Shown piece after piece: positions 20,847-25,309 of a DNA stretch of 64,000 nt. A model generated the notes under the pieces. It did no database searches. It was not told where the DNA came from and saw nothing but the letters and a program-made list of their open reading frames with translations. The stretch is from Xanthobacter agilis. Its GTDB lineage: Bacteria > Pseudomonadota > Alphaproteobacteria > Rhizobiales > Xanthobacteraceae. The position numbers were made by a program, and so were the translations under genes. The stretch covers positions 62,001-126,000 of the forward strand of contig NZ_JABWGX010000001.1 of assembly GCF_021730435.1 (NCBI RefSeq), read 5' to 3'. Positions within the stretch are counted from its first letter, which is position 1. Every line of letters starts with the position of its first letter.

Positions 20847-21016
20847 GGAACGGAGCGATCATCATTGCGACCGCTGCTCGATATAGCTTCTCATGGTCAT
20901 GGTTCCTGCTCTCGCGCAGTCGAGGTCTCCGGCCGCGCCGTACCGGCGCGGCCGGAAAATTCTCGATGCTGTCGAGAGACCGGCCGGAACCGCCGAAGCG
21001 GCTCCGGCCGTGGGGC

Positions 21017-23005
21017 TCATTCAGCGGCGTGGTTGAAGGCTGCGCCGTCCTCGACCGTGCCGGTATCGTCGCGACTGGCTGCGGCCGGCGCATTTAGGAC
21101 CACTCCGGCGTCAGCCTCCGGGGCATCCAGCCATGCGGGCCGTTCGGTGCGCAGGAATGTGGGGAGCCATCCGGTGGCGGCGACAAGCTGCTCGGCGGCT
21201 TCCGCCATGGGTTGTTTTTTCATGCCGGCGATCCGGTCGGCGGCCTCGTCGCTGACGGCCTCCCGCACGGCGGCGACAATGTGCGCCTTGGTCACGCGAC
21301 TGAGGTAGGTCCGTGCCGTGGGCGTCCAGTGCGCCGTCATGTCGAGTGCAAGCGCGGTCGCTAGCCGGTCCGCCGTCTCATGGACGCGGGGCTTGCGGTC
21401 CCAGGGCAGCCTCACCGCATTGACGGTGAGTGAAGCGCAATGGGCGAACAGCGCCAGCACGCTCGCCTGATCCAGCGCGGCGATGAAGCCCCACAGGTCA
21501 GCCACATCGCCCGGCATATCCGCTGCCCATCCGGCATGACGATCCGCCAGCGCCTTCGCCGGAGCGGTGTCATTGATGCCGTCCGCGTGCCCGGTGAGGG
21601 TGCTGCTCGTCGACCGGATTTCGAGGCAGGCGGCTTCCGCGCCGCGATAGAAGGTCTGCGCGGCGAGGGCATGGGTGACGGCGATCAAGGCTATGTCCGG
21701 CTGCTCGCCGAGAGCGAGGCGCAGGCCGAGCGTGCGGTGGGCCGTGAGGTCTCGCACGAGAAGGTCGGACAGCGGCTTGCCCGCATCCCCGGCGTCCTCG
21801 TCCTCGGGGTCGAGCGCGGAAACGGGATTTCCATCCTTGTCATCCGTGCCGTCCTCGATGATCTCGCCATCCTCGGTGACGCGTATGTTCTCTGCGGCTT
21901 TTTCCGGCTCGGGTTTCTCGTCCCCGGCCCGGATGAAGCCGCGCTCGATGCGGGCAGTGCCGTCATGCGACAGCACGACCAACACGCCGCCGCGCGCGAT
22001 GTCGTCCGGGTCATAGATGTGCTGGAGCGCGTCGATGCGCTCCATGTCCGCTTCAAGTACCCCGAACCGCTCGTCCGCCTCTTGGGGAAGCTCCTCTGCG
22101 CCATCCCATTCCTCCGACAGCCGGTTGTATTCCTCCTGCGCGGCGGCATAGGCGGCGGCATCTTCCTCGGAAAGCTCCACCGGCTGCGGATAGGCGCGGC
22201 GCAAGCCGTGGGCATGGGGATAGTCGATGTGGACCGAGACCCACTTCCAGCCTTCCGCCTGAACCTCGGCGGCGATCCGCTCCAGCTTCCTGGTGACGAG
22301 CCCGTCCAACAGCGCGGCATCCTCGTAGAAGCCCCCACGATCCTCCGTGAACAGGTCGCGGATGATGGTGCCGCCCGCCTCGGTGTACTCCTCCGGGCCG
22401 ATGAAGATCGCCCGGCGATCCGTCGCCGGAATGTGTGCCTTGGTGAGGTCGCGGCGGATGATCCACGGCTCGCGGTTGTAGGAGAGGTTCGCAAAAACCT
22501 GCTCCTGCCGCCCGTGGTCCTCGGTGATGGCGAAGGCCATCAACTGGTCGAGGCTCAAGCCGCCGTCGCGGTACACCTGCAACAGCTTGGGGCTGACCGC
22601 GCCGAGCCGCAGGCGCTGGCGCACCACTTGCGCCGTCACGCCGAAGCGGGCGGCGATCTCCTCCGCTCCCCACCCGCGATTTTCCGCAAGCTCGCGGAAT
22701 GCCTCGAACTGGTCGGCCGGATGCATCGCCTCGCGGGTGACGTTCTCGTCAAGGCTGATCTCGTGCGGGTCATTCGCCGTGTCGATGACGCAGCGCACCG
22801 GCTCGGTCTTCCTGATCTCCTTGCGCTTCACGCGGAGAAGCTGGGCAAGCCTGCGGCCTTCGCCCACCGTCACGAAATAGCTGCCGGTGGGCTCTCCCGC
22901 CGCATCAAGCTCGGGCTCCACCACAAGGTTTTGCAGCATACCCTTGACGGCGATGCTGGCTGCCAGCGCCTCAATGGTCGCTTCGCTGTGCGGGGTCTCC
23001 CGCAA
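21017..23005 (-). CDS. ParB/RepB/Spo0J-type protein lacking the usual N-terminus
   Basis: The large ParB-like proteins of this ICE family bind DNA and carry a long C-terminal region of unknown role. Present here are the ParB nuclease-like domain (ATIEALAASIAVKGMLQNLV, TVGEGRRLAQLL, LDENVTREAMHPADQFEAF), the helix-turn-helix (EEIAARFGVTAQVVRQRLRL) and an acidic linker (residues about 290-420). Family members normally begin with about 35 further residues ahead of the first conserved helix. Here the frame opens only at a TTG and runs into the 3' end of the neighbouring gene, so the 5' end looks deleted. It may be poorly expressed or inactive. Confidence 0.82.
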   Translation of the reverse strand: MRETPHSEATIEALAASIAVKGMLQNLVVEPELDAAGEPTGSYFVTVGEGRRLAQLLRVKRKEIRKTEPVRCVIDTANDPHEISLDENVTREAMHPADQFEAFRELAENRGWGAEEIAARFGVTAQVVRQRLRLGAVSPKLLQVYRDGGLSLDQLMAFAITEDHGRQEQVFANLSYNREPWIIRRDLTKAHIPATDRRAIFIGPEEYTEAGGTIIRDLFTEDRGGFYEDAALLDGLVTRKLERIAAEVQAEGWKWVSVHIDYPHAHGLRRAYPQPVELSEEDAAAYAAAQEEYNRLSEEWDGAEELPQEADERFGVLEADMERIDALQHIYDPDDIARGGVLVVLSHDGTARIERGFIRAGDEKPEPEKAAENIRVTEDGEIIEDGTDDKDGNPVSALDPEDEDAGDAGKPLSDLLVRDLTAHRTLGLRLALGEQPDIALIAVTHALAAQTFYRGAEAACLEIRSTSSTLTGHADGINDTAPAKALADRHAGWAADMPGDVADLWGFIAALDQASVLALFAHCASLTVNAVRLPWDRKPRVHETADRLATALALDMTAHWTPTARTYLSRVTKAHIVAAVREAVSDEAADRIAGMKKQPMAEAAEQLVAATGWLPTFLRTERPAWLDAPEADAGVVLNAPAAASRDDTGTVEDGAAFNHAAE

Positions 23006-23327
23006 CGTCGGGTGGCAGCTTGTCGCCCTTATCGAAGAGTTTGAGCCCTTCGTTCATAAGGTGCTCGATCAGCCGATAGGGCTGAAGTTCCTCAGGAAAG
23101 AGGGCCTCCACGACAGCCTTGAGTCCGCCGTCCGCGTCTACGCTGCCGACGTTCCATTTTGTACCGGCGCCTTCAGACGTGCCGCGCTGGACGCCTTGTT
23201 CGATGGCGTGAGCCATGGCGAATTTCGCCGCTTCGATCTCCGACCCAAACTGGCCCGCGGCCACGAGGGCGGCCAAGACGCGCTCATTACCGCTGGTGAT
23301 CCCGATGGTCTTCTTGTCGGTGCTCAT
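22971..23327 (-). CDS. Small unassigned protein paired with a DndD-like ATPase
   Basis: The 118-residue product (MSTDKKTIGITSGNERVLAA, LVAAGQFGSEIEAAKFAMAH, then TKWNVGSVDADGGLKAVVEA and EELQPYRLIEHLMNEGLKLF) is soluble and helical. I do not recognise the family with certainty. Its N-terminal half resembles a short ribbon-helix-helix or DndE-like fold. Its ATG overlaps the ATPase stop by 4 bp, so the two are coupled and probably act together. Its 3' end overlaps the truncated parB by 35 bp, probably a rearrangement junction. Confidence 0.65.
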   Translation of the reverse strand: MSTDKKTIGITSGNERVLAALVAAGQFGSEIEAAKFAMAHAIEQGVQRGTSEGAGTKWNVGSVDADGGLKAVVEALFPEELQPYRLIEHLMNEGLKLFDKGDKLPPDVAGDPAQRSDH

Positions 23328-25216
23328 GCCACAGGTTCCTTGCGTTGAACGAGTTCGGTGTGGCGGGCGGTCACCCGCTCCAAGCTCCACTCCGCGCGAA
23401 GGCGTCCCTTAAGCGCCTCGCGCGCGCGGGCCGGTGGCATTTCCTCTTCGTAGACCAGGAGAACCACTTGGTCGGCCATGTCTGGGAGGGCCTGCACGAT
23501 CCGAGCCCGGTGTCCGCCGTCAAGTCGCCCGAACGGGGAGTCGATCACGATTGGGCCTCGAAGCGGCGCGTTGTTCTGTAGGGCCGCTACCAGCGAAAGG
23601 GCGACCACGTGCTCGGCGCCGGCCGAGCGAACGGGAATGTCCGTGTTGTCCTTGTGAACAATGGTGAGACCGTACCCGTCGTTGATCCGCAGCCCCCCAT
23701 AGTCCGGCTCTGTGGTCAGCTGGAGGAAATAGCGCGAGGCATCTGCTTCGACACGGCGGCGCAGTTGTTCCCGATAGACACTCACCGCGTCTTTGAAGAG
23801 ATCCTGGAGGTCCGACGCGAGCGCGCGGCGCCGACGTTCCACGTCGAGCTGGCCACCGGCGAGCTTGTCCAGTTGGCGTTGGAGCTTTTCCCTGAAGGTT
23901 TCGTTCTTCAGCAAAGCCGAGCGGCTTTCGGTCAACCCATCTTCCAATATCTGGATTTGTCGGATGACGTCGTCGTAGTCGCGTCGGAGGCCTCGCAGTT
24001 CATCCTCCGTGCCGTCGCTGATTTGGCGGTCCAGCTCTTCGACCTCGGCCTTCTTGGCGTAAATATCCCGCTCGATTTCTTCGAACCCGCTCCACAGCAA
24101 GACCAGTGCTTCCGGGTTCGCTGTCGCCAGCTGCTCGTCGATGGCGTCAAGCCGGCGTCGGAGGCTGCCGAGTTCGCGTTGCATCACCTGTGGGGCGGCC
24201 CTTTCTTCGCTAACGGCTTCCCGGATCTTTGCTTGAGCCGCCGGAGAGACTCCTTGCAGGCAGGTTGGGCATGACGGGTCGTGATCTTCGGCCAGACTGT
24301 GGAGGACGTGAGCCCGGGTCAGGGCGATCTGGAGCTCACTCTCGCGCGTTCGTAGTGCTGTGGCAGCGGCCAACAGCCGGGGTTTCAACAGCGCCGACCA
24401 AGCGGGTCCCATCGCCTTGCCGATCAGTTCCCGCTGCCTCTCGGCGCGGTTGTCGAGGCCTTTCACCTCATCTTTGAGGCGGTCACGCTTATCGAGCAGC
24501 GACGCCAGACGTTCCCGGCGGCGCATGTCATCCTCGATGGCCACCTTTCGGGCGCGCTCAGTCTCGAGGTCCCGTTCCTGGCGGAACAAGTCATTGGTGA
24601 GCACGTCCCGTTCCTCCACCAGCGACTGGAGTTGATTGCCAAGCTCACGGGTTTTCTGATCGCCCTGCGCTTCAAGCGCGACGCGGGCGTCGGCCCGGTC
24701 CAGTGCTGCCTTCAAGCTGTCGCGCGACGCCGTAAGCACGGGTAAGCCCAATATCCGTTCAATTGAAGCGCTGATCTTCGGCCCGATATCGGTGTCGCCG
24801 TGGAGCAGGTCTTCATATTCTTGGAGCAACTCCCCGTCGAAGAGGAAGAAGCGCGCGATCTGCTCTGGAAGGATTCGTTCCAGTTCGACCTTCGCTTGTT
24901 GTGGCCCGAGAATATGACCACCCCGCTCAAGGTAGTAGTCGATCTCATAATCATCGTCGGTGGTGGGCACGATGCCGCGCACCTTCGGCCGACACGTCCG
25001 GGTGAGCCGATAGTCGGCACCCGCGTAGGTCAATTCCAGACGGACTTCAAAGCCGAAGACGCCATCGGCGCGCGCTTCCCAATTCTCGGTGTCATGCCAG
25101 GAGACGTCGCGCCTTTCCACAGGGGGCTGGTGGACACTCTCGACATCGGTGGTCACCAAGTGGTCACCAAACAAAAAACGACAAAACCGCCTCTCGGCGG
25201 TTTCGCTATAAGTCAT
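23324..25216 (-). pseudogene. DndD/Rad50-like ATPase, N-terminally truncated at the element end
   Basis: The protein has two long coiled-coil arms around a CPTC zinc-hook-like turn (DPSCPTCLQG near residue 350). Its C-terminal ATPase half has the signature-like RSAGAEHVVALSLVAAL and a Walker B IVIDSPFGRLDG. It also has the FFLFDGELLQEY block typical of DndD. The N-terminal 80 to 100 residues with Walker A are missing. In their place the frame reads through the tRNA terminator (ETAERRFCRFLFGDHLVTT). ATP binding should therefore be lost. Homologues act in DNA phosphorothioation-linked or similar defence systems; that role is inferred. Confidence 0.72.
25172..25203 (-). terminator. Rho-independent terminator of tRNA-Gly
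   Basis: Read on the minus strand, AAACCGCC-GAGA-GGCGGTTT is followed by TGTCGTTTTTTG. It lies about 30 bp after the tRNA 3' end and should end the tRNA transcript before the element genes. Confidence 0.8.
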
Positions 25217-25234
25217 TGTCTTTCTGAAGAATTT

Positions 25235-25309
25235 TGGAGCGGGCGATGGGATTCGAACCCACGACCCCAACCTTGGCAAGGTTGTGCTCTACCCCTGAGC
25301 TACACCCGC
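25235..25309 (-). tRNA. tRNA-Gly (GCC)
   Basis: The cloverleaf is complete: acceptor stem GCGGGTG with CGCCCGC, D-arm TAGCTCAGGGGTAGAGCA, anticodon loop CTTGCCAAG (anticodon GCC) and T-arm GTGGGTTCGAATCCCAT. The 3' CCA is encoded. The conjugative element begins directly at its 3' side, so this is the probable attachment site and the gene was restored on integration. Confidence 0.97.

Follow-up and report, generated by a model that had tools for sequence, protein, structure and literature searches.

CxC ABC-ATPase/DndE systems have been described in a paper that equates them in part with PbeABCD, which it states to be of the same kind; according to it, some CxC/DndE systems are accompanied by cytosine methylases, and those systems often also have an MTaX1 gene (PMC10853773). 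In a study of the pbe genes, deletion of each gene impaired protection, low-level resistance was retained by pbeBCD without pbeA, and 155 of 320 solitary pbeAC were near methyltransferase genes (PMC6459918). An operon that we found in a MAG of another genus (G048) resembles these systems in having a methylase, MTaX1, PbeA and a PbeC that bears a CPTC motif, together with a 65-codon ORF and a small gene in the DndE position. Thus, the intact operon belongs to a described kind. One point of difference is that PMC10853773 speaks of cytosine methylases, whereas the G048 methylase matches the profile N6_N4_Mtase.

The corresponding locus of Xanthobacter agilis (genome of 4.81 Mb in 66 contigs) was analyzed in a stretch of 64,000 nucleotides, here called the window (C11:62001-126000). 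It differs from the CxC/DndE systems in that it retains only a pbeC gene without a P-loop and a pbeD gene with a changed tail. The feature is real and its cause is ordinary: it is the deletion scar of a defence system of a described kind.

Table 1. Features of the element discussed in the text. Positions are those of the window, except where the contig (C11) is given.
Feature	Position	Strand	Description
Tyrosine integrase	C11:9651-10961		Left end of element; Pfam Phage_integrase and Arm-DNA-bind_3
ParB-like gene of element	21017..23005	-	N-terminus lost at junction 2
pbeD-like gene	22971..23327	-	Assigned by position and conservation; ATG start by eye; junction 2 changes the last 8 residues
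Deletion junction 2	22997..22998	.	Lacks 2,664 bp present in G048; flanking blocks overlap by 2 nt (AG)
pbeC remnant	23324..25114	-	Residues 60-655 of the 655-residue PbeC, a CxC/DndD-type ABC ATPase; without Walker A
Deletion junction 1	25114..25115	.	Lacks 7,700 bp present in G048; flanking blocks overlap by 2 nt
Right terminus of element, retained	25115..25234	-	Terminator-like hairpin (by eye) and repeat pair
tRNA-Gly(GCC)	25235..25309	-	ARAGORN; 3' half is the attachment core

The pbeC remnant and the element terminus

The remnant lies in an open minus-strand frame (25279-23324 in the ORF table) that starts inside the 3' half of the tRNA-Gly(GCC) gene, in line with a first-pass annotation of this DNA, which described the N-terminus as replaced by read-through of the tRNA-Gly terminator. 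The PADLOC PbeC model PDLC02747 matches it with E=1.9e-189, from profile position 59 of 632, so that the resemblance to PbeC is not due to chance; when the frame is read from the ATG at 25216, residues 35-593 align to profile positions 59-631 of 632. The best DndD model gives 3.2e-33 (among the best 25 of 57 PADLOC families listed). Judged by these profile scores, the remnant is nearer to PbeC than to DndD. The earlier label of a DndD/Rad50-like ATPase is corrected accordingly. The NCBIfam DndD equivalog TIGR03185 scores 114.6 bits with the remnant and 155.2 bits with the G048 protein, both below the cut-off of 245.85.

Both CPTC and DSPFG are present in the remnant, in agreement with the annotated zinc-hook-like turn and Walker B. 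We take CPTC to be zinc-hook-like, DSPFG to mark the Walker-B region and GKT to mark the P-loop. By sequence, CPTC is a CxxC zinc-hook-type turn in the coiled coil, found at residue 341 in G048 and, with the remnant numbered as read, at its residue 316. The P-loop motif GKT, which G048 PbeC has at residue 39, does not occur in the remnant, which lacks the first 59 PbeC residues, including Walker A. The first-pass annotation was thus right that Walker A is absent, but 59 residues are gone rather than half of the protein, and homology resumes at residue 60 rather than at about residue 40. Whereas the G048 homologue covers positions 1-631 of 632 of the PbeC profile, the remnant matches only from position 59 on. 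A Pfam search of the remnant gave no ATPase match at E<=0.1; the N-terminus of G048 PbeC matches AAA_23 above the cut-off and SMC_N below it. Of the 596 residues common to the two proteins, 595 are identical.

The gene had been thought to be cut exactly at the attachment site, but PbeC homology stops at window 25114/25115, within the element and 120 bp from the tRNA 3' end. The intervening DNA holds the terminator-like hairpin, recognized by eye, and, at window 25149-25169 (C11:87149-87169) beside the tRNA end, the repeat pair TGGTGACCAC-T-TGGTGACCAC. The element's own terminus is still in place, and the break is not at the attachment core. The exact 21-bp pair TGGTGACCAC-N-TGGTGACCAC also occurs beside the integrase gene (C11:9595-9615) and nowhere else in C11:1-126000. 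The element in G048 has the exact pair at its right end (C632:100472-100492), and none was found at its left end in a search of C632:14001-102933. We read the pair as putative arm-type integrase sites; the lack of an exact copy at the left end of the G048 element speaks somewhat against this. At the right end, the terminal 146 bp are found in 2 of 391 family genomes, our own and G048. A second tRNA-Gly(GCC) gene on C34 (L010:7980-8054) is 99% identical over 91 bp; the DNA downstream of it is different and is without the element's terminal repeat pair.

The integrative element and its intact relative

The tRNA 3' half is repeated directly at C11:9416-9477, the second copy being on the same contig and strand as the first. 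The two copies are 91% identical over 62-65 bases in a genome search and identical at 44 of 44 core bases, with ca. 78 kb between the core copies on C11. The locus thus has the makeup of an integrative element at tRNA-Gly: direct repeats of the tRNA 3' end bound it on both sides, and an integrase gene lies next to one of them. In the part of the element that falls inside the window, Pfam matches RPA, ParA-type AAA_31, Peptidase_S26, DUF3363, T4SS-DNA_transf, T2SSE and CagE_TrbE_VirB, which indicates that the element is probably conjugative. By these seven matches it resembles Tn4371-like integrative conjugative elements, from which it differs in being integrated at the 3' end of tRNA-Gly. The left half of the element also encodes a P-type ATPase with a hemerythrin-like domain (L006:14174-16582) and an AcrB-family efflux protein (L007:12009-15140), which are possibly metal-resistance cargo.

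Relatives of the integrase at E<=1e-60 occur in 85 of the 391 family genomes. All five integrases that are at least 61% identical (our own, two in G048, and one each in G217 and G057) adjoin a copy of the tRNA-Gly core that agrees in 42 to 44 of 44 bases; among 26 further integrase loci (35-42% identity, with flanks of up to ~1.5 kb), L054 is the one that matches the core at 34 or more of 44 bases.

PbeC matches at E<=1e-20 were found in four family genomes of 391 (our own, G048, G352 and G303), and the open frames around the match in the three others measure 666, 665 and 759 aa. The 655-aa PbeC of G048 has a P-loop. The intact copy of the element is known from a single contig of one MAG (G048, 79% complete); the operon proteins of NCHM01000001.1 (MAG Rhizobiales bacterium 24-66-13) are 100% identical to those of G048. 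The G048 element is bounded by a core copy at C632:23368-23412 and by the tRNA-Gly at 100558-100632, and in both genomes the integrase is at the left end. Alignment establishes how closely the two are related: identity is 93% at the integrase end, 95% over 26 kb of backbone and 98.6% over the terminal 209 bp including the tRNA (C11:87114-87322), with 84% in the chromosome beyond. At its right end, beside the same tRNA-Gly, the G048 element carries the intact operon methylase-MTaX1-PbeA-small ORF-PbeC-PbeD, in which the methylase (1276 aa) has HTH and N6_N4_Mtase matches and the MTaX1 protein has HTH_17 and MTaX1 matches. The HTH part of the MTaX1 gene (L016:5260-6111) additionally gives 55.9 of 80 bits with the NCBIfam model of the MADS protein MAD1, which is below cut-off, and a weak match to PADLOC mad1 (E=0.0017).

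The order methylase, MTaX1, PbeA, PbeC, PbeD recurs in all six loci found with PbeC in genome_contigs, namely the G048 MAG and five loci separate from it (two Sphingomonas, one Sphingosinicella and two uncultured Tateyamaria). PbeC coverage is at least 650 of 655 residues in each; the small ORF between pbeA and pbeC was read, among the six, in G048 only. A PbeA-type nuclease-helicase, PbeC, PbeD and the methylase are found together in 6/6 loci, and this combination does not occur in our genome.

Junctions in the operon remnant and the fate of the missing DNA

At junction 1, blastn gave two blocks, C11:84997-87115 = C632:90619-92737 (99.76% identity) and C11:87114-87322 = C632:100436-100644. 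These define the missing 7,700 bp, the 2-nt overlap and the position of the break relative to the tRNA end. The DNA lying between the pbeC breakpoint and the terminus in G048, and lost here, comprises codons 1-59 of pbeC, the 65-codon ORF, pbeA, the MTaX1 gene and the methylase gene. Junction 2 is bounded by the first of these blocks and by C11:82868-84998 = C632:85823-87956, from which it follows that 2,664 bp are missing at the 3' end of pbeD. The pbeD-like protein matches nothing in Pfam, PADLOC or NCBIfam at the cut-offs used; a relative follows pbeC in 6/6 loci. On the other side of junction 2, the ParB-like ORF is longer in G048 (805 codons, L015:15970-18387), and in 4/4 NCBIfam ParB-type models our gene's match starts 9 to 18 profile positions later than that of G048. 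No copy with just one of the two deletions was found, and the junction, as an exact pattern, had 0 matches in viral_contigs.

The pbeC-pbeD DNA of the two elements is 99.8% identical, compared with 91-95% elsewhere in the common element. Given this mosaic, recombination between elements may have brought the segment in, before or during cutting. At window 20868-20873 (C11:82868-82873), G048 has a further 3.8 kb (C632:81986-85822) that is absent from our element here and that contains oxidoreductase-like and transporter-like ORFs, as judged by eye.

Searches of the assembly showed no match to the missing parts elsewhere. The 7.8-kb stretch of G048, used as a DNA query against our genome, returned only the two edges of junction 1 (best 40 of 152 candidates). 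Neither PbeA (all 19 candidates scored) nor the methylase (all 23 candidates scored) had a match in our genome at E<=1e-5, and the same two queries recovered their genes in G048. Full-length PbeC, searched as protein against the whole genome, found the remnant alone. PbeC, PbeA and the methylase were the protein queries.

Origin of the remnant

The pbeC remnant is almost certainly a recent deletion scar of an anti-phage operon, left by ordinary gene decay, and not a gene that is restored on circularisation. Very probably, the element once carried a complete virus-defence operon beside tRNA-Gly. We propose that an integrative element in tRNA-Gly(GCC) would have held, at its right end, a methylase-type CxC-ATPase/DndE defence operon made up of the methylase, the MTaX1 protein, the PbeA nuclease-helicase, the small ORF, the PbeC ATPase and PbeD. 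A deletion of ~7.7 kb would then have brought codon 60 of pbeC up against the element's terminal 120 bp, and another of ~2.66 kb would have fused the pbeD 3' end to the interior of the ParB-like gene, both sparing the attachment core and the putative arm sites. Because G048 has whole genes at both places where our genome has fragments, deletion in our lineage is the simplest direction, and we infer that it took place there. The form of the junctions suggests illegitimate (short-overlap) end joining. The data fit the fallback reading of the first-pass annotation, a scar of lost cargo, the cargo being a defence operon that the element carried at its right end and that suffered an internal deletion. 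The remnant is presumably inactive, as it lacks the P-loop and has lost its nuclease-helicase, small-protein and methylase partners, although the low-level resistance of pbeBCD without pbeA, as reported in PMC6459918, means that the loss of pbeA alone is no proof of inactivity.

The reading that the annotation had preferred was a split gene, with its 5' part at the left end of the element and an intact ATPase gene rebuilt on excision and circle closure. The remnant does reach near the right terminus, and the left end, with its direct repeat, is on the same contig; but where a Walker A-bearing start was expected, the left end has unrelated sequence, the integrase gene, on the strand opposite to the remnant. 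The best match to PbeC residues 1-59 in C11:1-126000 has E=1.8, which is chance level, and the remnant's frame, followed upstream from the core, runs into a TGA at the 11th codon without passing a start. The whole-genome protein search recovers only PbeC residues 60-655. The relative at tRNA-Gly with which the locus could be compared points the same way: in the G048 element pbeC is whole and internal, and the terminus lies 7.7 kb away from the breakpoint. A full-length gene that continues past the breakpoint, which the annotation had taken as the mark of simple deletion in closely related strains, is thus present in a close copy of the element, albeit in another genus and not in a closely related strain. 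Since no P-loop-bearing frame leads from the left end into the core, circle closure would restore nothing, and we give a split gene practically no chance.

It is very unlikely that the strain has an intact operon whose missing DNA was dropped in assembly. The genome is in 66 contigs and the junctions are known from the assembly alone, but junction 1 lies inside a 255-kb contig with the second junction 2.1 kb away, there is no further match to the missing segment, PbeA or the methylase, and the genome scored 99.99% complete. In a variant that is compatible with the deletion model, the integrase would have recombined a core-like or arm-like site in pbeC with the terminus, excising the DNA between. 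The deletion end is indeed 34 bp beyond the putative arm pair; however, when the 60 bases on each side of the G048 breakpoints were inspected by eye, neither the core nor the arm repeat was found at the pbeC side, the overlap is just 2 nt, and nothing resembling an attachment site was seen at junction 2, which is of the same form, so that we hold this variant to be highly improbable. Finally, a P-loop-less PbeC and a near-complete PbeD might still be produced and counteract a related CxC/DndE system in trans, whether as a DNA-scanning decoy, as a dominant-negative partner or in some other way, giving the element counter-defence. No finding here supports such a role, and we consider it extremely unlikely.

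Recognition of the remnant as a deletion scar removes a tempting false lead, that of a defence gene reassembled on excision. It also shows clearly, in a recent case, how defence cargo at one end of an integrative element can decay through short-overlap deletions that leave the integrase and the attachment site in place.
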